This document shows positions 1,445-15,509 of a stretch of 16,683 bases of DNA, piece by piece. The notes under the pieces are model-generated. The model worked only from the letters and a program-made list of their open reading frames with translations. It was not told the DNA's origin and searched no databases. The stretch is taken from assembly GCA_016209865.1 (NCBI GenBank), contig JACQVL010000057.1:1-16683 (forward strand), given 5' to 3'. The position numbers and the translations under genes are program-made. The DNA comes from Candidatus Latescibacterota bacterium. Its GTDB lineage: Bacteria; JAAXHH01; JACQVL01. Position 1 is the first letter of the stretch. Each line of letters begins with the position of its first letter.

Positions 1445-1450
1445 ACCGCA

Positions 1451-1492
1451 GTGACGAGTGACGGGTAGCGCCCCATTCAACATTGAATGGGG
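1451..1492. repeat. Heptamer remnant plus perfect hairpin between convergent genes
   Basis: Two GTGACGA-like heptamers (1451-1464) are followed by a perfect inverted repeat. CCCCATTCA (1471-1479) pairs with TGAATGGGG (1484-1492) around a four-base loop. The hairpin sits between the stop of lpdA and the stop of the minus-strand membrane gene, so it is well placed as a bidirectional terminator. No T-run follows it on either strand, so it is not a canonical intrinsic terminator. The 'heptamers, short spacer, hairpin' order recurs at 8624-8690. Confidence 0.6.
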
Positions 1493-3705: not shown

Positions 3706-5064
3706 TTGACTGAGACACCACAGACCTTCGACGAGTACCTCGCACGGATGAAAACCACACATGGCCCGTTCATGGACGAGCGGGAGTGGGACACGGTCAT
3801 CGCCCCCAACCTAGAGGCGATCCGGCAGTCTGTCGCACGAGGCGGCGGCGGCCCGGATGATGAGGTCCACTGGGCGCTCGTCCGGCAACAGTTCTCGTTC
3901 GATCACGAGACGGGATACTTGAACACCGGAACGCTGGGAGCTTCGCCGTTGGCCGTCCGGCGGAAGGCGGCCGAACTGCGCGAGGTCTGCGAGCATGACC
4001 CCTGGGTCGGCCAGGGCTGGTTGTACCGGCACGCCCAGCAGGCCGTGGAGAAAGTCGCCGCCCTCCTGAACGCAGAGCCGAGTGAGATTTCGTTCACCCA
4101 GAACACCACACAATCCTTGCTCCATGTGTCGAGCGGACTCGACCTGCGGCGCGGCGACCTCATCGTCACGACCAACCGGGAGCATCACGGGGGACGGATC
4201 GCCTGGGACCTGGTGCAAAGCTGGCGCGGCGTACACGTCGAGAACGTGCCCATTCCCGACGTCGTGGAGGACGCCGACAGCCTGAACGCGGAGATCATCC
4301 AGCGATTTCGCGACACGTTCGAACGGTACAATACCCCCAAGTATGCTCGGAAGAAAAAACTCCTGAGCGTCGCGCATATCTTCTCCCCCATCGCCCGGCG
4401 GATGCCCGTCAAAGCCCTGTGCGCCTTAGCCCGGGACTATGGCTACGTGTCCTTCGTCGACGGCGCGCATGCGGTCGGCATGATCCGCGTGGATCTGCAC
4501 GACATCGGCTGCGATTTTTATGGCACGAGCACGCACAAATGGCTGCTCGCCACGAAGGGCACGGGGATTCTCTACGTGCGGAACGCCTCCAGCGATCGGA
4601 TGAAGCGGTTCGTCACGAAAGCGCAGTGGAACGCGTGGCAGGTGAACAAGACCATGCCATCGACTGGACCGTTTGGCACGATGGGCACGTACGATCCGGC
4701 GGCGTGCTGCGGCATCGGGGCGGCCGTGGATTTCCTCAACCTGATCGGGAGCATCGACCGGGTGGAGGCGCGGGGATGGGCGCTGGCCTGCCGGCTCCGG
4801 AACGGAATCGATGGACTGCCCGGTCTGGGGTTCATCACGCCGAATCAGCCCCTTAGCACGCCCGTCGAACGCCGGTTATCCGGGTCGATGACCGCGTTCA
4901 TCCTCGACGGTGCCGGGAATATGGGCGAGCAGCTCCGGGATCGGTACGCCATCAATTTCCCGTCGAGCGATCGATGGGGGCGGGTCTCCACGCATTATTA
5001 CAACACGCCGGCTCAGGTTGACCGGATCATCCAGGCGCTCCGGGATCTGGCGGGACGTGGGTAA
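3706..5064 (+). CDS. Class V aminotransferase-fold PLP enzyme, copy 1
   Basis: The 452-residue protein belongs to the fold-type I, class V PLP family (isopenicillin N epimerase / cysteine desulfurase-like). A substrate pocket motif NTGTLGASP lies at about residues 73-81. Asp252 in FVDGAHAVGM should pair with the PLP ring nitrogen, with His255 stacking on the ring. The Schiff-base lysine is Lys278 in STHKWLLATKGTG. An RRLSG motif and the C-terminal small domain (STHYYNTPAQVDRI) close the protein. No cysteine-bearing desulfurase loop is evident, so an epimerase, lyase or aminotransferase is likelier than IscS activity, but the substrate is unknown. There is no signal peptide. The TTG start is supported by a strong GGAGG. 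Its paralogue at 12808-14163 has the same length and register, and the two genes bracket sdhCAB and two transport-related genes. It precedes sdhC by about 200 bases of repeats and is probably a separate transcript. Confidence 0.88.
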   Translation: MTETPQTFDEYLARMKTTHGPFMDEREWDTVIAPNLEAIRQSVARGGGGPDDEVHWALVRQQFSFDHETGYLNTGTLGASPLAVRRKAAELREVCEHDPWVGQGWLYRHAQQAVEKVAALLNAEPSEISFTQNTTQSLLHVSSGLDLRRGDLIVTTNREHHGGRIAWDLVQSWRGVHVENVPIPDVVEDADSLNAEIIQRFRDTFERYNTPKYARKKKLLSVAHIFSPIARRMPVKALCALARDYGYVSFVDGAHAVGMIRVDLHDIGCDFYGTSTHKWLLATKGTGILYVRNASSDRMKRFVTKAQWNAWQVNKTMPSTGPFGTMGTYDPAACCGIGAAVDFLNLIGSIDRVEARGWALACRLRNGIDGLPGLGFITPNQPLSTPVERRLSGSMTAFILDGAGNMGEQLRDRYAINFPSSDRWGRVSTHYYNTPAQVDRIIQALRDLAGRG

Positions 5065-5144: not shown

Positions 5145-5251
5145 CCAGTGGTCAGTGACGAGTAAAACAGCATGGATTCCCGCTTGCGCGGGAATGACAA
5201 CCTGACTGACCATCTCACTTTCTTAACTCGTCACTGGTCACTCGTCACTGC
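5145..5251. repeat. Nested inverted repeat: heptamer-type arms around an ATTCCC-N8-GGGAAT palindrome
   Basis: The outer arms at 5147-5166 and 5223-5242 are inverted copies matching at about 17 of 20 bases. They are built of the GTGACGA / CAGTGAC word family, and the right side continues with another TCGTCAC unit to 5249. Inside the loop, at 5176-5195, sits a palindrome ATTCCC-GCTTGCGC-GGGAAT. Its orientation, judged from the flanking GGA/GAC bases, is opposite to the copies at 8667 and 15484. The 20-base ATTCCC-N8-GGGAAT form is the same as that described for neisserial dRS3 elements. The composite lies directly upstream of the sdhC ribosome site. Confidence 0.82.
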
Positions 5252-5261
5252 TTTCAGGCAT

Positions 5262-5265
5262 GGAG
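5262..5265 (+). promoter_or_regulatory. Ribosome binding site for sdhC
   Basis: GGAG lies five bases before ATG 5271. It fixes the sdhC start at MSRLFLFYRSS and rules out an in-frame ATG at 5172, which would translate the repeat. Confidence 0.7.
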
Positions 5266-5270
5266 CATCG

Positions 5271-5948
5271 ATGAGTCGGCTGTTCCTCTTCTACCGCTCC
5301 TCCATCGGCAAGAAAGTCGTCATGGCCGTGACGGGCTTGGTTCTGTTCGGGTTCGTCGTGGTGCACATGGCAGGCAACCTCAAGGTTTACCAGGGCGCTG
5401 AAAAAATCAACGCGTACGGCGAGTTTCTCCGGGCAATGGGGAGTCCCGTCTTCAGCCACGGCCAGGTGCTGTGGATCGCGCGAATCGTGCTGCTGGCGTC
5501 CGTTGCCCTGCACATCATGGCGGCGGTGCAGCTCATCTTGATGAACCGACGCGCCCGGCCGGTCGGGTACACCCACCAGGACCCCATCCAGGCGACGTAC
5601 GCCTCCCGCACGATGATCTGGAGCGGGCCGGTCATCGCTCTGTTCGTGATCTACCATCTCCTGCATTTTACGGCGGGGACGGTTCATCCGAGCTTCCGAG
5701 CCGGGGATATCTACCATAACGTCATCGCGGGCTTCCGGGTGTGGTACGTCTCGGCGTTCTATATCGTGGCGATGGTGGGACTGGGGTTTCATCTGTACCA
5801 TGGCGTCTGGAGCCTTTTCCAGACGCTGGGGATCAACGACGTCCGGGTCGACCGGTTTTTCCGCCGCTTAGCCGCGGTTGCCACGGTCGCGGTCGTCGCC
5901 GGGAACATCTCCATCCCCGTCACCGTGCTCCTCGGTCTGATCTCGTAA
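5271..5948 (+). CDS. sdhC: Succinate dehydrogenase cytochrome b558-type membrane anchor
   Basis: The 225-residue protein anchors complex II and carries the haem and quinone sites. It has the single-subunit, five-helix architecture of the b558 family typical of menaquinone-linked succinate dehydrogenases and fumarate reductases (Bacillus, Bacteroidetes, epsilon-proteobacteria), so no sdhD is expected. Helix 1 begins after FYRSSIGKK. Candidate haem-ligand histidines occur in VVVHMAGNLKVYQG, VALHIMAAVQ, YHLLHF and FHLYHGVWS, one per helix in the expected pattern. The C-terminal helix ends in VTVLLGLIS. It is the first gene of sdhC-sdhA-sdhB, with 19 bases before sdhA. The start is chosen by GGAG at 5262. 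The longer in-frame start at 5172 would give an extension translated from the ATTCCC palindrome and is not credible. Confidence 0.94.
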   Translation: MSRLFLFYRSSIGKKVVMAVTGLVLFGFVVVHMAGNLKVYQGAEKINAYGEFLRAMGSPVFSHGQVLWIARIVLLASVALHIMAAVQLILMNRRARPVGYTHQDPIQATYASRTMIWSGPVIALFVIYHLLHFTAGTVHPSFRAGDIYHNVIAGFRVWYVSAFYIVAMVGLGFHLYHGVWSLFQTLGINDVRVDRFFRRLAAVATVAVVAGNISIPVTVLLGLIS

Positions 5949-5967
5949 TCGCGGGGGTTGACGGACT

Positions 5968-7881
5968 ATGGAACTGCGCGCCAGCGTCCCGTCCGGGCCG
6001 GTCGAGCAGAAGTGGGACAATCATCGCTTCGAGATGAAGCTGGTCAGCCCGGCCAATAAACGGAAGTACACCATCCTCGTCGTCGGGTCGGGACTGGCCG
6101 GGGCGTCGGCCGCCGCGTCGCTCGCCGAGCTGGGGTACAACGTCACGTGCTTCTGCTACCAGGACAGCCCCCGCCGCGCCCACAGCATCGCGGCGCAGGG
6201 GGGGATTAACGCGGCGAAGAACTACCGGAACGACGGAGACAGCGTTTTCCGGCTGTTCTACGACACGATTAAAGGGGGCGACTACCGGGCGCGTGAGGCG
6301 AACGTTTACCGTCTGGCTCAGCTCAGCGTGAACATCATCGACCAGTGCGTCGCCCAGGGGGTGCCGTTCGCGCGGGAATACGGCGGCCTGCTGGACAACC
6401 GTTCGTTCGGCGGGGCCCAGGTCTCGCGGACGTTCTACGCCCGCGGGCAGACCGGTCAGCAGCTCCTGCTGGGCGCGTACTCCGCCCTCTCCCGTCAGGT
6501 CGGCCTCGGCCGGGTGGCGATGTACCCGCGCCACGAGATGCTCGACCTGGTCGTCATCGACGGCAAGACGCGGGGGGTCGTCGTGCGCGACATGGTCACC
6601 GGCCAGATCGAATCCCACGCCGGGGATGCGGTCGTGCTCGGCACGGGCGGGTACAGCAACGTCTTCTACCTGTCCACGAACGCCAAAGGGTGCAACGCCA
6701 CGGCCATCTGGCGCGCTTACAAACGCGGCGCGGCGATGGCCAACCCGTCGTTCACGCAGATCCATCCCACCTGCATCCCCGTCTCCGGCGATCACCAGTC
6801 GAAACTCACCCTGATGAGCGAGTCGCTCCGGAACGACGGGCGGATTTGGGTTCCTCAGCAGAAGGGAGATACGCGTCCTCCCGACCGGATTCCGGAGGCG
6901 GAACGGGATTATTACCTTGAGCGCCGGTACCCGGCCTTCGGCAACCTGGTGCCCCGCGACGTCGCCTCCCGCGCCGCCAAGGCGGTGTGCGATGAAGGCT
7001 TCGGCGTCGGGCCGGGCGGGTTGGGCGTCTACCTCGACCTGACCGACGCCATCAAACGGCTGGGCGAGCAGGTCATCCGGGAGCGGTACGGCAACCTGTT
7101 CGAGATGTACGAACGGATCACCGGGGAGAACCCGTACGAACGGCCGATGCGGATTTATCCCGCCGTCCATTACACGATGGGCGGGCTGTGGGTCGACTAC
7201 AACCTGATGAGCACGATCGACGGGCTGTACGTCATCGGCGAGGCGAACTTCTCCGACCACGGGGCGAACCGGTTGGGCGCGAGCGCGCTGATGCAGGGGT
7301 TAGCGGACGGGTACTTCATCCTGCCCGCGACGATCGGGGATTATTTAGCGCGGACGAAGCAGGAGAAGCTTGATCCTTCCCACTCCGCGTTCCGGCGGGT
7401 GGAGGCCGAAGTCACCGAGCGGACGAAACGGTTGTTAGCGATCCGAGGAAAGCGGACGGTCGACTCGTTTCACCGGGAGTTCGGCCGGCTGATGTGGGAG
7501 TATTGCGGGATGTCCCGCAACGTGCAGGGATTGCAAGTCGCCTTAGAGAAGATTCCCGCCCTGCGGGCCGAATTCTGGGAGAACGTGAACGTGCTCGGCG
7601 CGAACGAGGAGTTGAATCAATCGTTGGAGAAGGCGGGCCGGGTGGCGGACTTCTTCGAGTTCGCGGAGCTGATGTGTCACGATGCCTTAGAGCGGGCGGA
7701 GTCGTGTGGGTGCCATTTCCGGGAGGAATACCAGACCCCGGACGGGGAGGCGTTGCGGGACGACGCTGATTTTGCCCATGTCGCCGCCTGGGAATTCGCG
7801 GGGGTTGACAACCCGCCGATTCTGCACAAGGAATCCCTGGCGTTCCAGTATGTGTCGTTGACGCAGCGGAGCTATAAGTAA
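5968..7881 (+). CDS. sdhA: Succinate dehydrogenase / fumarate reductase flavoprotein subunit
   Basis: This 637-residue catalytic subunit oxidises succinate to fumarate on the cytoplasmic face. A dinucleotide fold [12 protein letters not shown] lies at residues 38-49. His72 in [15 protein letters not shown] is the residue expected to carry covalent 8-alpha FAD. Active-site residues follow the family: FTQIHPT with His266, SESLRNDGR, Arg335 in PRDVASRA (proton shuttle) and His401 in [11 protein letters not shown] final FAD contact lies near [18 protein letters not shown]. The C-terminal helical and cap regions are full length. The overall pattern (long form, [13 protein letters not shown]) resembles the menaquinone-linked group that goes with a b558 SdhC. 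The ribosome site is weak (GCGGGGG upstream). Its TAA shares one base with the ATG of sdhB, implying coupled translation. Confidence 0.96.
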
Positions 7882-8624
7882 TGGACGTGACTCTCCACGT
7901 GTGGCGACAGAAGAGCGCCGCCGACCGGGGACGCTTCGTGCGGTACGAGGCCCGGAACATCAGCCCGGATATGTCGTTCTTAGAGATGTTCGATGTCGTC
8001 AACGAAGGGCTGATCGCCCGAGGGGAAGACCCGATCGCGTTCGACCACGACTGCCGGGAGGGGATCTGCGGGACGTGCGGGATGGTGATCAACGGCGTCG
8101 CCCACGGGCCGCGGCGCGGCACGACCGTCTGCCAGCTCCATCTGCGGAGCTTCAGGGACGGGGACACGATCACCGTCGAGCCCTGGCGCGCCCGGCCGTT
8201 CCCGGTCATCAAGGACCTCGTCGTCGACCGGGGCGCGTTCGACCGGATCATCCAGGCGGGCGGGTTCATCTCCGTGCCCACCGGCAGCGCGCCCGACGCC
8301 AACGCCATCCCCATCCCCAAGCCGGACGCCGATTTGGCGATGGATGCGGCGTCCTGCATCGGCTGCGGCGCGTGCGTGGCCGCGTGCCCGAACGGGGCGG
8401 CGATGCTGTTCACGGCGGCCAAAGTCTCCCATCTCGGCCTCCTCCCGCAGGGACAGCCTGAACGCCGCCAGCGAGTCAGGCAGATGGTGGTCGCGATGGA
8501 CCGGGAAGGGTTCGGGAGCTGCACCAATTACGCGGAATGCGAAGCGGTCTGCCCGAAGGCCATCAGCATCCGGTTCATCGCCCGGATGAACCGGGACTAT
8601 CTGAAGGCCAGTCTGATGGAATAG
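7881..8624 (+). CDS. sdhB: Succinate dehydrogenase / fumarate reductase iron-sulfur subunit
   Basis: This 247-residue subunit wires electrons from the FAD of SdhA to the quinone site of SdhC. The plant-ferredoxin-like N-domain binds [2Fe-2S] with Cys58, Cys63, Cys66 and Cys84 ([10 protein letters not shown] ... TTVCQ). The C-domain binds [4Fe-4S] through [12 protein letters not shown] (Cys159, 162, 165) and [3Fe-4S] through Cys169, Cys214 and Cys220, with Cys224 returning to the [4Fe-4S] cluster ([16 protein letters not shown]). All eleven expected ligands are present. The ATG overlaps the last base of the sdhA stop. The gene ends directly against a GTGACGA heptamer array, and the TAG stop shares its G with the first heptamer. 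Confidence 0.96.
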
Positions 8625-8690
8625 TGACGAGTGACAAGTGACGAGTGACGAGCAAAACCTGGTGTCATTCCCGCGAAAGCGGGAATCCAT
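8624..8690. repeat. GTGACGA heptamer array followed by an ATTCCC-N8-GGGAAT palindrome
   Basis: Four tandem heptamers (8624-8651; the second reads GTGACAA) begin on the last base of the sdhB stop. After GCAAAACC and a few bases comes the perfect palindrome ATTCCC-GCGAAAGC-GGGAAT at 8667-8686. The heptamer, then G(C/T)AAAAC, then palindrome order repeats that at 5154-5195, so the pair behaves as one composite unit. The palindrome could form an mRNA 3' hairpin protecting sdhCAB, but it has no T-tract. Confidence 0.82.
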
Positions 8691-8729
8691 TCATTTGCCG
8701 TTTACGCACCATTTTAGAAAGGACGAGTC

Positions 8730-8981
8730 TTACCCGGCTTCATCCGGCAGGAACTCATACGTCTCGATCCCGGATGACTCCAGTCGATGCTTCAAGTTCT
8801 CGATACACCCCCGATCGCCCCACGCCAGGATTGTTTTCCCCTGGTGGGCCTCACGGAGCACACGACCAAGGCATTTGGTCAGCATCGGCGGAGCCGGAAA
8901 CAGCACCGTCACCCGGTCTTCATGGCCGCGCGCCCATGTGAACACCTTGTCCGCCTGGAATTCTGGGTAGACCAGGACCAT
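8730..8981 (-). CDS. Small hypothetical protein (83 aa)
   Basis: I do not recognise this protein. It starts MVLVYPEFQADKVFTW and ends LPDEAG. It is a mixed hydrophilic sequence with predicted alternating strand and helix, and has no signal peptide, membrane segment or metal motif. A helix-like stretch CLGRVLREAHQGK is followed by TILAWGDRGCIENLKHRLESSG and a final strand, so a small alpha/beta domain is plausible. The start at 8981 is chosen because GGGAGAGAG lies six bases upstream and a good promoter lies before that. The longer in-frame form (to 9149) would translate the AT-rich promoter region. The gene is a single minus-strand unit between sdhB and the divergent export gene. Its own promoter and ribosome site argue that it is real. 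Confidence 0.68.
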   Translation of the reverse strand: MVLVYPEFQADKVFTWARGHEDRVTVLFPAPPMLTKCLGRVLREAHQGKTILAWGDRGCIENLKHRLESSGIETYEFLPDEAG

Positions 8982-8987
8982 CGTATG

Positions 8988-8996
8988 CTCTCTCCC
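8988..8996 (-). promoter_or_regulatory. Ribosome binding site of the 83-aa gene
   Basis: On the minus strand this reads GGGAGAGAG, six bases ahead of the ATG at 8981. It sets the start and argues against the upstream in-frame ATG. Confidence 0.65.
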
Positions 8997-9023
8997 GGCA
9001 ACGAGTTGAACAGATATAATTGA

Positions 9024-9051
9024 AATATATGTAGAATAGACATAATGTCCA
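9024..9051 (-). promoter_or_regulatory. Candidate sigma70 promoter for the 83-aa gene
   Basis: Reading the minus strand, TGGACA (9051-9046) and TATATT (9029-9024) are separated by 16 bases, and each matches five of six consensus positions. The predicted transcript begins near 9017, with a leader of about 36 bases. The block 9010-9060 is strongly AT-rich. On the plus strand a weaker pair, TTGAAA (9020-9025) and CATAAT (9041-9046), is only 15 bases apart and might serve the divergent export gene. Confidence 0.5.
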
Positions 9052-9141
9052 GAAAATAAATGAGGATAACGGCGTCGTTTTACTAACGAAAACGCTCTGA
9101 GCGGGTGAGAAGTTCCAGATCTCCTAAAATTGCAGGGCTTT

Positions 9142-10896
9142 ATGAGCATTTATTCTTTCAAAGTCATTCCTGCAAAAGCAGGCCTCCATCGGACGCTCGT
9201 CCTCATCATCTGCGCCTGCAGCCTGGCCACGGTCAGCCCGGCGTTCGCCCAGCAAGACATGTTTTTGCGCGACACCGAACGGGAGCAAGGACGACGGACG
9301 TTGTCGGCGAGCCGGGCGCTCATCCCCAACCTCTTTAACCAGGAGAACCTGCTGAAGGGCGTGGTGGACGTCCGGCTGATCCTGCCGCCGCTGGAACAAC
9401 CCATCTCGCCCGCCACCTACACCGTCGGCCCCGGCGATAATATCCTGGTGCACATCGGCGGAGAGGTCAACCAGTCGTATGCGCTGACGATCAACCCGGA
9501 ATGCCTGTTGGTCATCCCCACGATCGGCGCGATCGACGCGAACGGATTGACGCTCAGCCAGGTCAAAGAACGTGTCCGGCAACGCGCCCGCGTGCAGTAC
9601 CTCAAAGCGGATATCACCACCGCCCTGCTCTACCCCCGGCAGTTCCGGGTCACCGTCTCCGGGGCGGTGAACAACCCGGGCTCGTTCGTCGCCACCCCGG
9701 TCGATCGTGTCTCTGAGGTGCTGTACCAGGCCAACCGGCCGACCGAAGTCCAGGCCCGACTCGCCGCCGACCGGGCGTTCGTCCTCCCTTCGACCCGCGC
9801 CTCGGACCGGAACATCGAGATCCGGCGGCGGGATGGGACGGTCATCGCCTCAGACTTGCTCCGGTATCTCGCCACCGGTCTCCTCGATCACAACCCGCGG
9901 CTGCTCGACGGGGACGTAATCTTCGTGCCGGTCCGGAACCTCGGCGGTGGGAATATCACCGTAGCCGGGGCGGTCAACTCGCCCGGCCAGTATGAGTACG
10001 CCGAGGGCGATCGCCTGGGGACCCTCCTCGACCTGGCGGGCGGACTGACCTTCGGGGCGGACCGGACACGGGTCGAGGTTTCACGGTTTCACGTGAACTC
10101 AGACTCCGTCCAGACCGTGGAGACGATCCCGATCGACCTGACTCAGGGCCAGACGGCGCTCAATACTCCGCTCCACCCGCGGGACCGCATCTTCGTCCGG
10201 ACCGCCCTCAAGTCGGTCGCGGAATACCAGGTCACCGTCAAGGGGGAAGTCCGGTATCCGGGCACCTACCCGATTTCGTCCGACGGGATGGCGCTGTCTC
10301 AGATCATCAACGCCGCCGGGGGGGTGACGCCGTCCGCGTTCCTCAAAGGGGCGAGCGTCATCCGGGCCTCGAAGACGGAGCCGGCGCCCGCCAACGCGGA
10401 CGCGGATCGCGTAGCGAAGATGCGCCTGGGCAAGCTCAGCCAGCAGGAACGGGCGGACTTCGAGGTGCAGACGACCTACCGGCGTGAGGTCGTCGTCGTC
10501 GATTTTAAGCGGCTGTTCAACGACCACGACCCGTCCGTGGACATCGTCCTCCAGGACGGGGACACCGTGGTCATCCCGTCGAAGAACGAGACGGTCAGCG
10601 TGATCGGGCAGGTAGTCAGTCCGGGCCAGGTCCCGTACGAAGCGGGCCAGTCCTACCAGCACTACATCCAGCAGGCGGGCGGGTTCGGGACGCACGCCCA
10701 GCGGCGGGGCGTCCGGGTGATCAAAGCCCAGACGTACGAATGGCTCCCTCCCGACCGCACGCCAGTCGATGTCGGGGACACCATCTGGGTTCCCCGCCCC
10801 CCTCAGCGGAACTACTTCGCGATTTTCAAAGAGACCCTCCAGGTGATGGCCACCCTGACGACCCTCTACCTGGTCATCCAGCAGATCGCACGGTGA
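9142..10896 (+). CDS. Polysaccharide export protein with SLBB repeats (Wza-like)
   Basis: The 584-residue periplasmic/outer-membrane protein is of the capsule and exopolysaccharide export family. An N-terminal signal peptide has Lys/Arg in the n-region, a hydrophobic LVLIICACSLATV core and an AFA|QQ signal peptidase I-like site near residue 36. There is no clear lipobox, unlike Wza. The Poly_export domain is at about 90-165 (YTVGPGDNILVHIGGEV ... LTLSQVKERV). SLBB-type repeats follow, each with a GxVxxPGxY signature: TVSGAVNNPGSF (about 171), TVAGAVNSPGQY (about 272), TVKGEVRYPGTY (about 367) and SVIGQVVSPGQV near 500. A hydrophobic segment close to the C-terminus (about 558-580) could be the outer-membrane helix of Wza-like channels. 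ATG 9142 is preferred to TTG 9130, although its ribosome site is poor. No glycosyltransferase, polymerase or tyrosine kinase gene lies nearby. Confidence 0.87.
   Translation: MSIYSFKVIPAKAGLHRTLVLIICACSLATVSPAFAQQDMFLRDTEREQGRRTLSASRALIPNLFNQENLLKGVVDVRLILPPLEQPISPATYTVGPGDNILVHIGGEVNQSYALTINPECLLVIPTIGAIDANGLTLSQVKERVRQRARVQYLKADITTALLYPRQFRVTVSGAVNNPGSFVATPVDRVSEVLYQANRPTEVQARLAADRAFVLPSTRASDRNIEIRRRDGTVIASDLLRYLATGLLDHNPRLLDGDVIFVPVRNLGGGNITVAGAVNSPGQYEYAEGDRLGTLLDLAGGLTFGADRTRVEVSRFHVNSDSVQTVETIPIDLTQGQTALNTPLHPRDRIFVRTALKSVAEYQVTVKGEVRYPGTYPISSDGMALSQIINAAGGVTPSAFLKGASVIRASKTEPAPANADADRVAKMRLGKLSQQERADFEVQTTYRREVVVVDFKRLFNDHDPSVDIVLQDGDTVVIPSKNETVSVIGQVVSPGQVPYEAGQSYQHYIQQAGGFGTHAQRRGVRVIKAQTYEWLPPDRTPVDVGDTIWVPRPPQRNYFAIFKETLQVMATLTTLYLVIQQIAR
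9163..9187. repeat. Degenerate copy of the palindromic repeat inside the signal-peptide codons
   Basis: Over 25-26 bases this matches the 8664 and 15481 repeats at all but about five positions (ATTCCT-GCAAAAGC-AGGCCT core). The CCTGC-AAAA-GCAGG stem is kept through paired changes. It is in frame with the export gene and encodes VIPAKAGLH of the signal-peptide n-region. Confidence 0.6.
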
Positions 10897-10898
10897 AT

Positions 10899-12698
10899 AT
10901 GGTCCCGCACCCCCAACCCCGCTCCCAGAGCGGGCGAAAAGGCGAAACGGGGAAACGGCGAAACGGGAACACCTCACCCCTTTGTGTTTTGTCTCGTCAC
11001 TCGTCACTCGTCACTCGTCACTGCTTTTTCCCCCTTTCGCCTCTTCGTCTCTTCGCCGTTTCCCCCCTTCTTTGCCTTGTGATGTGCGCCTGCAGCGCCC
11101 TTGACGCCGTCCCCGCCAACGTAAACACCATGGGCGTGACGCTTCCACCTGACGCCGCTCCTCCGGTCAAACAAACCCTGCGCCTCATGGGCGGAGAGCC
11201 GAAGACGCTCGACGCGACGCTCGACAATTACGGCACCGGCGCGTCCCAGTACATCTTCGAACGGCTCGCCCTGCTCAACGAGGAAGACCAGCTCATCCCC
11301 GGCGCGGCGGAACGGTGGGAGTCGTCGAAGGACGGCCGCGTCTGGACGTTCCACCTCCGCAAGGGCGCGCGATGGAGCGACGGCCATCCGGTGACCGCCC
11401 ATGATTTCGAGTGGACGTACAAACTCCTGCTCGACCCGGCCCAGGCAAACGTCTACGCGTTCCTCTTCTACGAGATCAAGGGGGCGCGGGATTTCAACCA
11501 GCGCCGGGTGACGAACCGCGACGCGGTCGGCGTCCGGGCGCGAGACGACCTGACGCTCGTCATCGAAGCCGCCAGGCCGTGTCCCTACCTGCCGTACCTG
11601 ACGTCGTTCATCTCCGCATCCCCCATTCCCCGGTGGCAGTTCGAGAAGTACGGCCGGAAATGGACGGAATCCGGCCACTGTGTCAGCAACTTTACGTTTA
11701 AACTCATCGAATGGACGCCGGGACGCCGCCAGGTCTTTGTCCTCGATCCCACCTACAACGGCCAGTACAAGGCCCGGCTCGAACGGGTCGTCATCCAGTT
11801 CATCACCGGGACAAGCGTCGGCATCTTCCCGTACGAGAACAACGAAGCCGATCTCGCCGCCGTGACTCCGGCTGACCTGCCCCGCGTGCAGGCCGACCCG
11901 AAACTGCGGCGGGAGCTGTTCATCTGGCCGCATCAGAGCACTGGATACCTGCTCTTCCAGACGAAAAGGCCGCCGTTCAACAACGTGAAACTCCGGCAGG
12001 CGATCGCCCATGCGATCGATCGGGATGTCCTCTGTAAAGTGGTCATGCAGGGCCTGGCTGCACCGGCGTACACGATGCTCCCGCCGAACTTTCCCGGCTA
12101 CGTCGGCGATCGGTTCCGGAGCTTGCAGGCGTTCAACCCGGCGCTCGCCCGGAAGCTCCTCGCCGAAGCCGGCTACCCGGCCGGGAAAGGGTTGCCGCGA
12201 GTGGAGTTCTGGATGGGGGGGAGCGCGCAAGCCACCCGTGGCCTTGTCCAGGCCATCCAGGGGATGCTCAAAACGCATCTCAACCTCACGATTCAGGTGG
12301 TGACACACGAAGGAGTTGATTATATCAATAGCCTCTACCAGCACCGGATTCCATTCGGGCTGACGGGTTTTCAGTCGGATTACCCCGACCCGCACAACAT
12401 GCTGTCGATGGTTTGGCACTCCCAGCCGGCCGGCTACGGCCGGCATGACTGGGCCAACCCGACGTTCGACGACCTGCTCGACCGGGCGGATTCGGAGATC
12501 GATCCGGTCAAACGGTTCCAGCTCTACGCCCGTGCGGAGCAGGTCCTGGCGGAAGACGTGGGCGGGGTCTTCCTCTACCACGGCGTCAACGCAGAGCTGC
12601 GCAAGCCGTGGGTGAAGGGCATCCCCAGGACGAAATCGGGGCATTATCCGTTCTGGGGGAATTATATCACACATACGCGAGTGTATATCGGGAAATGA
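10899..12698 (+). CDS. ABC transporter substrate-binding lipoprotein, family 5 (peptide/nickel/opine type)
   Basis: This periplasmic binding protein has the OppA/DppA fold (SBP_bac_5). The mature region begins LRLMGGEPKTLDATLDNYGTG and contains the family signature stretch LIPGAAERWESSKDGRVWTFHLRKGARWSDGHPVTAHDF, then RQAIAHAIDR and a C-terminal FGLTGFQSDYPDP region. It is about 600 residues with the chosen start. The start is uncertain. ATG 10899 lies two bases after the preceding stop, and TTG 10989 would give a cleaner lipoprotein signal. Neither has a good ribosome site. The hydrophobic stretch before CLVMCAC looks like a lipobox region, although Met or Ala before Cys is not ideal. The n-region codons fall in the repeat block 10932-11079. 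No permease or ATPase genes are adjacent, so the transporter partners are elsewhere or the protein has another sensing role. Confidence 0.82.
   Translation: MVPHPQPRSQSGRKGETGKRRNGNTSPLCVLSRHSSLVTRHCFFPLSPLRLFAVSPLLCLVMCACSALDAVPANVNTMGVTLPPDAAPPVKQTLRLMGGEPKTLDATLDNYGTGASQYIFERLALLNEEDQLIPGAAERWESSKDGRVWTFHLRKGARWSDGHPVTAHDFEWTYKLLLDPAQANVYAFLFYEIKGARDFNQRRVTNRDAVGVRARDDLTLVIEAARPCPYLPYLTSFISASPIPRWQFEKYGRKWTESGHCVSNFTFKLIEWTPGRRQVFVLDPTYNGQYKARLERVVIQFITGTSVGIFPYENNEADLAAVTPADLPRVQADPKLRRELFIWPHQSTGYLLFQTKRPPFNNVKLRQAIAHAIDRDVLCKVVMQGLAAPAYTMLPPNFPGYVGDRFRSLQAFNPALARKLLAEAGYPAGKGLPRVEFWMGGSAQATRGLVQAIQGMLKTHLNLTIQVVTHEGVDYINSLYQHRIPFGLTGFQSDYPDPHNMLSMVWHSQPAGYGRHDWANPTFDDLLDRADSEIDPVKRFQLYARAEQVLAEDVGGVFLYHGVNAELRKPWVKGIPRTKSGHYPFWGNYITHTRVYIGK
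10932..11079. repeat. Octamer inverted repeat enclosing a TCGTCAC heptamer array
   Basis: The left arm is octamers of the GGCGAAAC type (10933-10964: GGCGAAAA, GGCGAAAC, GGGGAAAC, GGCGAAAC). The right arm (about 11031-11068) is the inverse, with units reading GGCGAAGA, GACGAAGA and GGCGAAAG on the minus strand. A 14-base perfect inverted match pairs 10949-10962 with 11052-11065. In the loop lie four tandem TCGTCAC heptamers (10994-11021), the inverse of the arrays at 8624. The whole block lies between the end of the export gene and the mature part of the solute-binding protein, and is open in the latter's frame. Confidence 0.75.
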
Positions 12699-12788
12699 AC
12701 GTTTGCACGTTCACACGTTAGCACGTTAGCACGTTCGAATATCCTGGCTTTCAACGTTCCAACGTTCTAACGTTCTAACGTGCCAACG
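12699..12788. repeat. Hairpin of CACGTTAG octamers
   Basis: The left arm (12700-12737) is tandem octamers (CACGTTCA, CACGTTAG, CACGTTAG, CACGTTCG). The right arm (12751-12788) is its inverse, matching at about 30 of 38 positions, around an 11-13 base loop. It starts at the stop of the solute-binding protein gene and ends about ten bases before the GGAGG of the second PLP enzyme, filling the gap. It may act as a terminator, mRNA stabiliser or leader structure. Confidence 0.8.
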
Positions 12789-12797
12789 CTCTTTTAC

Positions 12798-12802
12798 GGA
12801 GG
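12798..12802 (+). promoter_or_regulatory. Ribosome binding site that sets a GTG start
   Basis: GGAGG lies five bases before the GTG at 12808, matching the arrangement used by the paralogue at 3706. Confidence 0.8.
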
Positions 12803-12807
12803 TCATC

Positions 12808-14163
12808 GTGTCCAACGCACCACAGACGTTTGACGAGTATGTCGAACAGATGAAACGGACGAGCGGGCCGCTGATGGACGAACGCGAATGGGAGACCGTC
12901 ATCGCGCCCAACCTGGAGGAGATCCGGCAGTCGCTCGAACGAGGCGGCGGAGGCCCAGATGATGAGGCGCACTGGGCGCTCGTCCGGAAGCAGTTCACGT
13001 TCGATCACGAGAAAGGCCATCTGAACACCGGAACGCTTGGGGCTTCACCGTTGTACGTCCGCCGGAAGACCGTTGAACTCCGGGAAGTGTCCGAGCGTGA
13101 ACCCTGGCACCACCAGGGATGGGTGCACCGCTGTGAACAGGAGGCGATCCAGAAAGTCGCGGCACTCCTGAACGCACAGCCGGGCGAGATCACGTTCACG
13201 CGCAACATCACCGAATCGATGATCCAGGTGGCGACCGGCCTCGACCTGCGGCGGGGCGATGTGGTCGTGACGACCAACCGGGAGCACGGCGGTGGGCGGG
13301 TTTCCTGGGACATGGCGCACGACTGGCACGGGGTGCACGTCGAGAACGTGCCCATCCCGGATGTCGTGGAGGACGCAGACGGACTGGATGAGGCGACGAT
13401 CGAGCTGTTCCGTCACACGTTCGAGCGGTACAACACGCCGAAGTATGCGAAAAAGAAAAAACTCTTGAGCGTCAGTCATATCTTCTCCCCGCTCGCCCGC
13501 CGGATGCCCGTCAAGGCGCTCTGCGCGCTGGCGCGCGAATACGGCTACCTGTCGTACGTTGATGGCGCGCAGACGGTCGGGATGATCCGCTTCGACCTGC
13601 ACGACATCGGGTGTGATTTCTACGGGAACAGTCCGCACAAATGGCTGCTCGCCCCGAAGGGGACGGGCATCCTGTATGCGCGGAACGAATCAATCGCCCA
13701 CCTGAAGGGGATGCACACGAAAGCGACGTGGAAGTCCTGGAAGACGAACAACGCAGCCCTCTCTGCCCGGCCATTCGGAGCCAGGGGGACTCACGATGTG
13801 GCGGCGTGCGGGGGGATTGGGTTTGCCGTTGACTTCCTCAACCTGATCGGCGGGATCGACCGGGTGGAGGCGCGCGGGTGGGGGCTGGCCTGCCGGCTCC
13901 GGGACGGGATTGAACGACTGCCCGGCCTGAAGTTCATCACCCCGAATCAGCCGAAGCACACGCCCATCGAGCGCCGGTTGTCCGGGGCGATGACCGCGTT
14001 CGTCCTCGACGGCGCCGGGAATATGGGGGAACAGCTCAGGAATCGGTACGGCATCGACTTCCCGGCGAGCGACCGGTGGGCGCGGGTGTCCACCCACTAC
14101 TACAACACCCCGGCGCAGGTCGACCGGATCGTTCAGGCGCTCCGGGCGATCGCGGGAAGATAG
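12808..14163 (+). CDS. Class V aminotransferase-fold PLP enzyme, copy 2
   Basis: The 451-residue paralogue of the 3706-5064 protein aligns without gaps through at least residue 300. PLP residues are kept: Asp252 in YVDGAQTVGM and the Schiff-base Lys278 in SPHKWLLAPKGTG. Position 255, where the ring-stacking His of copy 1 sits, is Gln here. Both residues occur in this superfamily. Other pocket differences are NTTQSLL to NITESMI (about 133-139), STHK to SPHK, and a divergent stretch at about 293-330 (NASSDRMKRFVTK against NESIAHLKGMHTK). This pattern suggests duplication followed by a change in substrate or partner rather than a redundant copy. The substrate is unknown. GTG start with GGAGG. 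It lies 80 bases before lysA, separated by a hairpin, and could be co-transcribed with it. Confidence 0.88.
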   Translation: MSNAPQTFDEYVEQMKRTSGPLMDEREWETVIAPNLEEIRQSLERGGGGPDDEAHWALVRKQFTFDHEKGHLNTGTLGASPLYVRRKTVELREVSEREPWHHQGWVHRCEQEAIQKVAALLNAQPGEITFTRNITESMIQVATGLDLRRGDVVVTTNREHGGGRVSWDMAHDWHGVHVENVPIPDVVEDADGLDEATIELFRHTFERYNTPKYAKKKKLLSVSHIFSPLARRMPVKALCALAREYGYLSYVDGAQTVGMIRFDLHDIGCDFYGNSPHKWLLAPKGTGILYARNESIAHLKGMHTKATWKSWKTNNAALSARPFGARGTHDVAACGGIGFAVDFLNLIGGIDRVEARGWGLACRLRDGIERLPGLKFITPNQPKHTPIERRLSGAMTAFVLDGAGNMGEQLRNRYGIDFPASDRWARVSTHYYNTPAQVDRIVQALRAIAGR

Positions 14164-14170
14164 AGGAAAA

Positions 14171-14237
14171 AAAGAATGGGGGAATGGGAGAAAGGGTGAA
14201 ACAGCTTTACCCCCACTCTCCCACTCTCCCACTCATT
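14171..14237. repeat. Hairpin of GARTGGGR octamers before lysA
   Basis: The left arm is octamers GAATGGGG, GAATGGGA, GAAAGGGT (14174-14197). The right arm (14206-14237), read on the minus strand, has GAGTGGGA, GAGTGGGA, GAGTGGGG. The loop is about AACAGC, and the stem is imperfect but purine/pyrimidine matched. It occupies most of the space between the second PLP enzyme and lysA and ends about seven bases from the lysA ATG, so it could limit ribosome access. Confidence 0.7.
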
Positions 14238-14243
14238 GGAAAG

Positions 14244-15470
14244 ATGGACATCCAGCACAACATCCTCCTCATCGGCGGCCGGCGGGCGGAAGACCTCGTC
14301 GCCGAATTCGGCAGCCCGCTCTACGTCTACGACGCGGCCGTCATTCGCGCCCGGTTCCGCGAGTTGCGAGAGGCGATCACCTATCCGAACGTTGATCTCC
14401 ATTACGCCTGTAAAGCGAACACCAACCTGGCCATCCTCCGGCTGCTCCACGCCGAGGGGGCGTACATCGACGCCGTCTCCCCCGGAGAAGTGTTCCTCGC
14501 CCTCACCGCCGGGTTCTCGCCTGAGCACGTCCTGTTCACCGGCAACAACGTGACGGATGAGGAGATGGAGTACGTGCTCGACCGCGGCATCCTGGTCAAC
14601 GTCGATTCCCTCTCACAGCTCGACCGGTACGGCCGACTGGCGCCCGACTCGCGCGTCTCCCTGCGGATCAACCCGGACGTGGGGTCCGGCCACCACGATC
14701 ACTGCATCACCGGCGGGCCGGACAGCAAGTTCGGCATCGTGATCGAGGACGTCGATCAGGCGCGTCAGATCATCGCCGGCCACCGGCTTCAGGTCGTCGG
14801 TCTCCACGCGCACGTCGGCTCCGGCATCTTAGAGGCGGAGCCGTTTCTCCAGGCCGCCGACGCGCTGCTCGACGTCGTCCGCCGGTTCGAGGGGCTGGAG
14901 TTCGTCGATTTCGGCGGCGGCCTGGGCGTGCCCTACAGGCCGGACGAGCCACGGCTCGCCGTCCGCGCGTTAGGGGCGAGGGTCTCCGAACGGTTCCACG
15001 CGTTCTGCCACGACTACGGCCGGCCGCTCACGTTGAAACTCGAGCCGGGACGGTACGTCGTGTGCGAGGCGGGCATGTTGCTCACCCGGTGCAACTCCAT
15101 CAAGGCGACACGGACGCACACGTTCGTCGGGACGGACTCCGGGTTCAACCACCTGATCCGTCACCCGCTCTACCTGTCGTATCATGAGATCATCAACGCG
15201 AGCAACGTGGAGGACGAGCGGTTCGTGTACGACGTGTGCGGGAACATCTGCGAGAGCGCGGACTTCTTCGCCCGGGGCCGGCTGATGTCGCGCGTTCGTG
15301 AAGGCGATGTGCTGGCCATCCTCAACGCGGGGGCGTACGGGTTCTGCATGAGCTCGAACTACAACTCCCGTCCCCGGCCTGCCGAAGTGCTCGTGGACGG
15401 CGGGACGGCGCGGGTCATCCGGGCGCGGGAGACGCTGGAGGATTTGCTGCGGGGGCAGGGGGAATTCTGA
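14244..15470 (+). CDS. lysA: Diaminopimelate decarboxylase
   Basis: This enzyme decarboxylates meso-diaminopimelate to L-lysine, the last step of the lysine pathway, and competes with peptidoglycan for that precursor. The 408-residue fold-type III PLP enzyme has an alanine racemase-like barrel followed by a beta domain. The PLP lysine is Lys57 in HYACKANTN. LRINPDVGSGHHDHCITGG ... SKFGI is a LysA-type barrel motif (about 140-164). HAHVGSG (about 188-194), GGGLG (224-228) and EPGR (267-270) bind phosphate and ring. Cys336-Glu337 in CGNICESADFF and Tyr373 in MSSNYNSRPRPAEVLV come from the partner subunit of the dimer and favour diaminopimelate over ornithine. The start is ATG 14244. The in-frame extension back to 14076 overlaps the previous gene and the hairpin and is rejected. 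The ribosome site (GGAAAG) is very close and weak. Confidence 0.93.
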   Translation: MDIQHNILLIGGRRAEDLVAEFGSPLYVYDAAVIRARFRELREAITYPNVDLHYACKANTNLAILRLLHAEGAYIDAVSPGEVFLALTAGFSPEHVLFTGNNVTDEEMEYVLDRGILVNVDSLSQLDRYGRLAPDSRVSLRINPDVGSGHHDHCITGGPDSKFGIVIEDVDQARQIIAGHRLQVVGLHAHVGSGILEAEPFLQAADALLDVVRRFEGLEFVDFGGGLGVPYRPDEPRLAVRALGARVSERFHAFCHDYGRPLTLKLEPGRYVVCEAGMLLTRCNSIKATRTHTFVGTDSGFNHLIRHPLYLSYHEIINASNVEDERFVYDVCGNICESADFFARGRLMSRVREGDVLAILNAGAYGFCMSSNYNSRPRPAEVLVDGGTARVIRARETLEDLLRGQGEF

Positions 15471-15480
15471 TTGAAGGATT

Positions 15481-15505
15481 GTCATTCCCGCGAAAGCGGG
15501 AATCC
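15481..15505. repeat. ATTCCC-N8-GGGAAT palindrome between convergent genes
   Basis: A perfect ATTCCC-GCGAAAGC-GGGAAT (15484-15503) has the same flanks as the copy at 8664-8690 (GTC before, CCA after). The gap between the lysA stop and the methyltransferase stop is 39 bases and this element fills most of it. A bidirectional transcript end is plausible; there is no T-run. Confidence 0.85.
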
Positions 15506-15509
15506 AGCA

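Follow-up and report, generated by a model that had tools for sequence, protein, structure and literature searches.

The genome of this Candidatus Latescibacterota bacterium carries numerous arrays of tandem 7- and 8-nt words between its genes, either single or as the two inverted arms of a hairpin. We lean towards the view that these arrays are small non-coding dispersed elements, of which the unit is an arm of ~31 nt, and that they were inserted at gene junctions and spread by a trans-acting factor. The window under study is a stretch of 16,683 nt (contig 343 of the host genome, G000, a 3.75-Mb draft that is 83% complete). The initial annotation had named four gaps, at positions 5145, 10932, 12699 and 14171, as each holding an inverted repeat with tandem 7- or 8-mer arms, and such repeats are indeed present in all of them. 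A repeat finder reported inverted arms at 5147-5166/5223-5242, 10944-10962/11052-11070 and 12716-12739/12765-12788. Tandem Repeats Finder identified period 7 at 5226-5249, 8623-8652 and 10993-11022, and period 8 at 10933-10966, 11036-11057, 12699-12735, 12752-12788, 14173-14200 and 14212-14234. RNA folding of the four gaps compared to dinucleotide shuffles gave z values of -3.75, -3.68, -6.22 and -4.37, respectively. No Rfam 15 match was found in the window. The features of the window are listed below with position, strand and the basis of the assignment.

1450-1466, plus strand: two-unit remnant AGTGACGAGTGACGGGT, shortly past the stop at 1444 (sequence).
5145-5166, plus strand: 5' arm of GTGACGA-type heptamers (AGTGGTCAGTGACGAGTAAA) (repeat finder, folding).
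5173-5199, no strand: short palindrome TGGATTCCCGC..GCGGGAATGACA within the loop, a separate dispersed repeat of many loops (sequence, loop BLAST).
5223-5250, minus strand: 3' arm of TCGTCAC heptamers, ending ~20 nt upstream of the start codon at 5271 (repeat finders).
8623-8652, plus strand: lone unpaired GTGACGA/GTGACAA array, beginning within the stop codon at 8622-8624 (Tandem Repeats Finder).
10932-10966, plus strand: 5' arm of GGCGAAAC octamers, 36 nt past the stop at 10896 (repeat finders).
10993-11022, minus strand: nested TCGTCAC heptamer array inside the loop of the octamer hairpin (Tandem Repeats Finder).
11036-11070, minus strand: 3' arm of the octamer hairpin (TTCGCCTC/TTCGCCGTTT) (repeat finders).
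12699-12739, plus strand: 5' arm of CACGTTAG-type octamers, beginning at the first base past the stop codon (repeat finders).
12752-12788, minus strand: 3' arm of CAACGTTC/CTAACGTT octamers, ending 19 nt upstream of the start codon at 12808 (repeat finders).
14173-14200, plus strand: 5' arm of GAATGGGA/GGGAGAAA octamers, 9 nt past the stop at 14163 (Tandem Repeats Finder, folding).
14212-14234, minus strand: 3' arm of CCCACTCT octamers, ending 9 nt upstream of the start at 14244 (Tandem Repeats Finder, folding).

The initial assignment of one word to each named gap held except for the gap at 10932, where an outer octamer hairpin encloses a GTGACGA-type array in its loop; the single array at 8623-8652 and the two-unit GTGACGA remnant at 1450-1466 had been missed. 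A plain hairpin (1464-1499) adjoins this remnant between two convergent genes; its 17-nt arms are 88% complementary, and it is probably an ordinary terminator. Two paralogous class-V-aminotransferase-like genes (3706-5064 and 12808-14163), located 7.7 kb apart, are each followed by a hairpin, and the words of these two hairpins differ. Arrays with one strand free of stops create false ORFs or false upstream starts, as observed at 10099-11007 on the minus strand and at 5172-5948 on the plus strand, with peptides such as MTSDE and RHSSLVTRH.

Across the host genome, we sampled 612 kb, including 315 kb of contigs that were chosen by number only, regardless of matches. The enrichment test was confined to these 315 kb and excluded the contigs picked from the match list (half of those sampled). 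We found 72 intergenic arrays (64 of period 7 and 8 of period 8) compared to ~0 in Markov shuffles, and at a stricter setting the numbers were 45 and 4, again compared to ~0. The sole enriched base periods were 7 and 8, with 14 and 16 as their multiples. Intergenic DNA makes up 10.7% of this sequence and contains 64 of its 73 period-7 arrays. Extrapolation leads to a total of roughly 850 arrays in the host genome. The catalogue from the 612-kb sample comprises 209 arrays with ~50 words and ~63 hairpins; the most frequent words are GTGACGA (66 arrays), GGATTTT (25), GGTGGTC (23) and GGACGAA (13). In the host genome, the GTGACGA-type heptamer query GTGACGAGTGACGAGTGACG had 248+241 matches with at most 2 mismatches, compared to 3+0 for the reversed control, and arrays of the AAAATCC type had 112+118 matches, compared to 1+1 for the control. 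The genome scan, word clustering and shuffle test for intergenic enrichment that had been proposed at the outset was hence positive in the sampled sequence, and the class is set by its architecture, as originally claimed: a period of 7-8, arms of ~31 nt, an intergenic position and ~50 words in the sample. The accompanying claim of a different word at each site has to be given up, since the main words are dispersed families with fixed arm polarity. Nor are all words unrelated, as GTGGTCG, GTGATCA, GTGACCA and GTGACGA are joined by small steps.

The arrays follow rules of position and polarity. They occupy 86 of the 170 co-directional gaps of at least 80 nt in the sampled part of the host genome, i.e. 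about half. For the three main words in the sample, the assignment of the word to the arm is constant (32/32, 17/17 and 12/12), and G outnumbers C in the 5' arm of 58 of the 63 hairpins. Where the flanking genes are co-directional, the 5' arm usually begins at most ~12 nt from the preceding stop codon and frequently overlaps it; the end of the 3' arm lies ~20 nt upstream of the next start, so that just the ribosome-binding site is left in between. At stops in the host genome, the G-rich strand is directed away from the nearest gene in 95 cases and toward it in 13 (108 in total), and at starts in 59 and 10 cases, respectively (69 in total). The same edge rule was found at 80 loci of many phyla for words that had not been used for their selection (40 away and 6 toward at stops, 24 and 9 at starts). 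Half of the arrays are single, in that a complementary partner in their own gap is not above the null expectation, and these single arrays obey the same gene-edge position and orientation as paired ones. CAT on the G-rich strand of the words from the host genome and other phyla was observed once compared to 7.4 expected occurrences, meaning that ATG is depleted in the start-proximal strand. This depletion suggests selection against false starts, and the polarity as a whole may be caused by selection against SD-like or ATG-bearing sequence upstream of starts.

The arrays are specific to their lineage. The GTGACGA-type word is absent from 15 same-order relatives, and same-order genomes are mostly devoid of the words of the host genome. 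The rpoN-hpf gap measures 173 nt with its hairpin in the host genome compared to 32-63 nt in relatives, zwf-pgl 147 compared to 9 nt, metG-tatD 125 compared to 6 nt in G011 (from match coordinates), and lepA-lepB 88 compared to 18-23 nt in G011 and G001. Since the orthologous gaps are mostly compact in the relatives, the hairpins appear to be lineage-specific insertions at compact junctions; insertion at the species level is deduced here from relatives more distant than sisters, and no gap was isolated that clearly differs between sister species by a complete hairpin and is identical otherwise. The relative G013 possesses hairpins of its own, mostly of octamers. Four orthologous gaps were compared in this genome, and three of them hold other words: AGAGTTA/AGAGTAC at lepA-lepB and, as read by eye, GGCGAAA-like words at gnd-zwf and AAAGTAC-like words at metG-tatD. 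The comparison of orthologous gaps that had been suggested thus revealed that words differ between relatives, and they also differ between sister genomes, as described below. In some hairpin-free relatives (loci L338 and L340), the metG-tatD gap contains different, longer tandem repeats past the metG stop (GGCCAGGTCA-like, with a period of about 9-10).

Array lengths peak at ~31 nt, which corresponds to about four copies of a 7- or 8-mer per arm. Arms of the main family have A-rich borders, AAAAgCA on the outside and TAAAAc on the inside, and the loop is not conserved. The hairpins are predicted to fold with a median of -49 kcal/mol (z about -7). According to BLAST analysis of loops of at least 30 nt, about half share short stretches, mostly a separate palindrome ATTCCCGC..GCGGGAAT. 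The loops in the host genome are mostly unrelated, which implies that the mobile unit there would be the arm rather than the hairpin. A palindrome of ~27 nt (TGTCATTCCCGCGAAAGCGGGAATCCA and its reverse) is located at 5173-5199, 8663-8689 and 15481-15506; it recurs in the loops of hairpins with different words and also alone past genes, and it resembles the dRS3-type ATTCCC...GGGAAT repeats of Neisseria. A diverged copy at 9161-9187 falls within the start region of a gene (9130/9142-10896), where it codes for VIPAKAG close to the N-terminus.

Changes in resident arrays became visible in two sister genomes of Acidobacteriota (G029 and G030), which share 92-93% identity over about 20 kb. Twelve of 18 arrays are identical in the sister. 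Gains and losses within arrays amount to exactly two units (14 nt), and in-register concerted word change was observed between GTGTTGA and GTGACGA (GTGTTGAGTGTTGA compared to GTGACGAGTGACGA). Furthermore, units of one arm were altered with the other arm unaltered, and loop content was wholly swapped for a hairpin with another word, the outer arms being conserved. These genomes also contain a composite of ~155 bp, with a GTGACRA pair on the outside and a GTGAATC pair on the inside, together with A-rich linkers and a small loop. It has sharp ends and occurs at no fewer than 20 further sites, most of these 20 with unrelated flanks; such sharp ends and dispersed copies are the behaviour of a mobile element. 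Beyond these lineages, the GTGACGA word is present in at least 12 phyla, counted as raw occurrence without a control word. Apart from the word used for selection, four words are common to several phyla compared to a composition-matched expectation of 2.4, and a universal word list across phyla was rejected on these numbers.

Several of these observations could also be accommodated by selected mRNA boundary structures, an explanation that we regard as possible though rather improbable. Such structures would insulate neighbouring genes, in that the upstream 3' end is protected, RNase III cuts, or the next ribosome-binding site is freed, and since pairing alone would matter, words would be free to vary. 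The strict placement between stop and ribosome-binding site, the stability of the folds (median -49 kcal/mol, z about -7), the other-word hairpins at three of four gaps compared in G013 and the depletion of ATG in the start-proximal strand (CAT once compared to 7.4 expected) agree with this explanation. However, 12 genomes that belong to another genus of the order lack hairpins, as do most orthologous gaps, and every second array is without a partner in its own gap. Moreover, the arms of a hairpin are matched only at the family level, and in the sister genomes the units of one arm change alone. A general terminator function had been considered as well. Intrinsic terminators, i.e. a GC hairpin followed by a T-run, were dismissed: a T-run (at least 4 T in 5 nt) past the 3' arm is present in only 19% of hairpins, with T at 30% compared to 23% in intergenic DNA.

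The first inference of the initial annotation was that slippage and template switching generate the hairpins de novo at each site; we regard this as unlikely. Period 7-8 in unrelated words would be expected from it, as would the two-unit indels and the concerted unit change between the sisters; cross-phylum sharing of words that, the selection word apart, does not exceed what composition predicts (4 compared to 2.4) points in the same direction. Yet the words form dispersed families with fixed polarity, common borders extend past the array, and array lengths peak at ~31 nt, whereas free slippage would spread them. In addition, the similarity between the paired arms of a hairpin does not exceed that between arms taken from different hairpins of the same word (permutation p of 0.75, 0.98 and 0.26), which argues against local inverted copying, unless heavy turnover followed, and gives no support to a template-switch origin of each hairpin at its site. 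Slippage retains a role as later change only, visible in two-unit indels and concerted word change. Overall, the data count against de novo generation as the sole source, and it stands for the origin and turnover of words.

A mobilising process, likewise raised in the initial annotation, remains plausible in the light of the lineage-specific insertions and the ~155-bp composite, even though no Y1 transposase or reverse transcriptase was found in the main hairpin-rich genomes and no target-site duplications were found. We consider it doubtful that the elements are classical MITEs of a DDE transposase, the ends of which would be tandem binding sites. The inverted tandem arms and the dispersed composite with sharp ends resemble such elements; on the other hand, the flanks contain no excess of shared k-mers as a sign of target-site duplication for k=5-8 (with a weak excess at k=4 only, 0.45 compared to 0.30), and arms occur singly as often as in pairs. 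Dispersed copies that are homologous over their full length and have sharp ends were found in G029/G030 but not in G000, where loops are mostly unrelated.

REP families travel with RAYTs. That the arrays are REP/REPIN elements which depend on such a Y1 transposase, or that they stem from a retroelement or telomerase-like addition via reverse transcriptase, is highly improbable and mostly refuted already, since despite REP-like position and abundance and despite head-to-head G-rich/C-rich arms that resemble fused telomere ends, no Y1_Tnp domain was found in G000 (83% complete), G013, G029, G030 and G032 and no RVT_1 in these genomes and G011 (all drafts, in which absence is not final), while hairpin-free relatives do have RVT_1. 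In E. coli, SbcD removes hairpins. We found SbcD in G000, G001, G011 and G013, and it was missing or below the family cut-off in 12 hairpin-free genomes of one genus (G002-G010, G012, G014 and G015). Loss of SbcD as the cause of hairpins was rejected, given its presence in G000, G011 and G013 and the lack of a hit above the cut-off in the 12 hairpin-free genomes.

According to the dispersed-element explanation that we favour, the unit would be the ~31-nt arm with about four 7- or 8-mer copies, in the main family with the borders AAAAgCA-[array]-TAAAAc. Arms would enter compact junctions, downstream of the stop codon and upstream of the ribosome-binding site, as the comparison of several gaps with relatives indicates, and would occur singly or as two inverted arms that are predicted to form a stable hairpin in RNA or single-stranded DNA. 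Resident arrays would change by two-unit slippage and homogenisation, as seen in the two sister genomes, and as a consequence words would drift and radiate. New arms may settle within old loops, for which the sister genomes provide an example. Natural selection would confine arms to gene edges in one polarity, consistent with the edge rule, and the polarity kept would be G-rich past stops and C-rich with few ATGs before starts. The putative trans-acting factor responsible for the spread would be neither a Y1 transposase nor a reverse transcriptase. The probable role of the arms in mRNA would be that of a passive barrier or a processing point separating neighbouring genes.

The nearest described kind of repeat is the Xanthomonas-type heptamer. 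Rehm and colleagues described GGGAATC in Xanthomonas and GGGGA(C/T)T in Nostoc and interpreted them as G-quadruplexes (PMC4692102). These heptamers are mostly intergenic and overlap stop codons; those on the coding strand lie at most 50 bp from a stop, and those on the non-coding strand at most 50 bp from a start; Xanthomonas has 70-75 inverted pairs of heptamer repeats, and their length varies among close relatives (PMC4692102). Both systems have 7-nt intergenic units, the edge rule and inverted pairs in common. In contrast to the Xanthomonas type with one word per genome, we found ~50 words in the sample, some of them free of G-runs, as well as octamers, nesting, and orthologous gaps at which the word has changed. 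By sequence, the G-runs of a G-quadruplex are lacking in GTGACGA, the commonest word, and GGATTTT and GGACGAA have only GG. MacGregor described TAACTGA direct repeats in marine Beggiatoaceae, and also in Cyanobacteria and Bacteroidetes, and the literature cited there links heptamer abundance to polymerase slippage (PMC4679880). These are similar to our arrays in being intergenic heptamer arrays scattered over distant phyla, but differ in that there is one word, mostly upstream of starts, with one indirect repeat only and no hairpin (PMC4679880). REP/REPIN sequences are short palindromic dispersed repeats between genes with high copy number, and each REP family has one sequence (PMC3116915, PMC3733652), whereas the arms here consist of tandem words and no Y1 transposase was found. 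A REP/REPIN family has a common palindrome that carries a GTAG or CGTC tag; the words here differ from one another and, judged from the letters, CGTC occurs inside the 3' arm of the GTGACGA family.

Cyanobacterial STRR are tandem heptamers of several words, and heptanucleotide-repeat hairpin stems occur in a tRNA-Leu intron. Our arrays resemble them in the tandem heptamers and in the several words, some of which lie on both sides of a stem. To our knowledge, STRR heptamers have not been described as gene-edge elements with fixed polarity. None of the papers searched contains the hairpin words themselves. While heptamer arrays and the edge rule are known, the multi-word, multi-period, nested form with fast, measured word turnover was not found in the literature searched.

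Earlier reports treated one heptamer each and explained the arrays by slippage, G-quadruplexes or regulation. In the present genome, many words follow common rules of position, arm length, polarity, nesting and fast word turnover. The occurrence of the same hairpin format with other words in other bacteria, together with the word differences between sisters, implies a general process at work. We tentatively propose, as a conjecture that may well fail, that bacteria of many phyla harbour a dispersed-repeat system which has gone unrecognised and which needs neither RAYTs nor reverse transcriptases. It would place tandem-word arms of ~31 nt at gene edges, join them into hairpins and constantly swap their words, and it would be defined by format rather than by sequence. 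Sister genomes of the Acidobacteriota type make gain, loss and word change countable. As the arrays fill about half of the co-directional gaps of at least 80 nt, overlap stops and create false ORFs, they matter for gene calling and the reading of operons, and automatic annotation of array-rich genomes will be affected by such ORFs. The extension of the position and polarity rules to other phyla turns scattered reports into one question, namely what lays the arms down.
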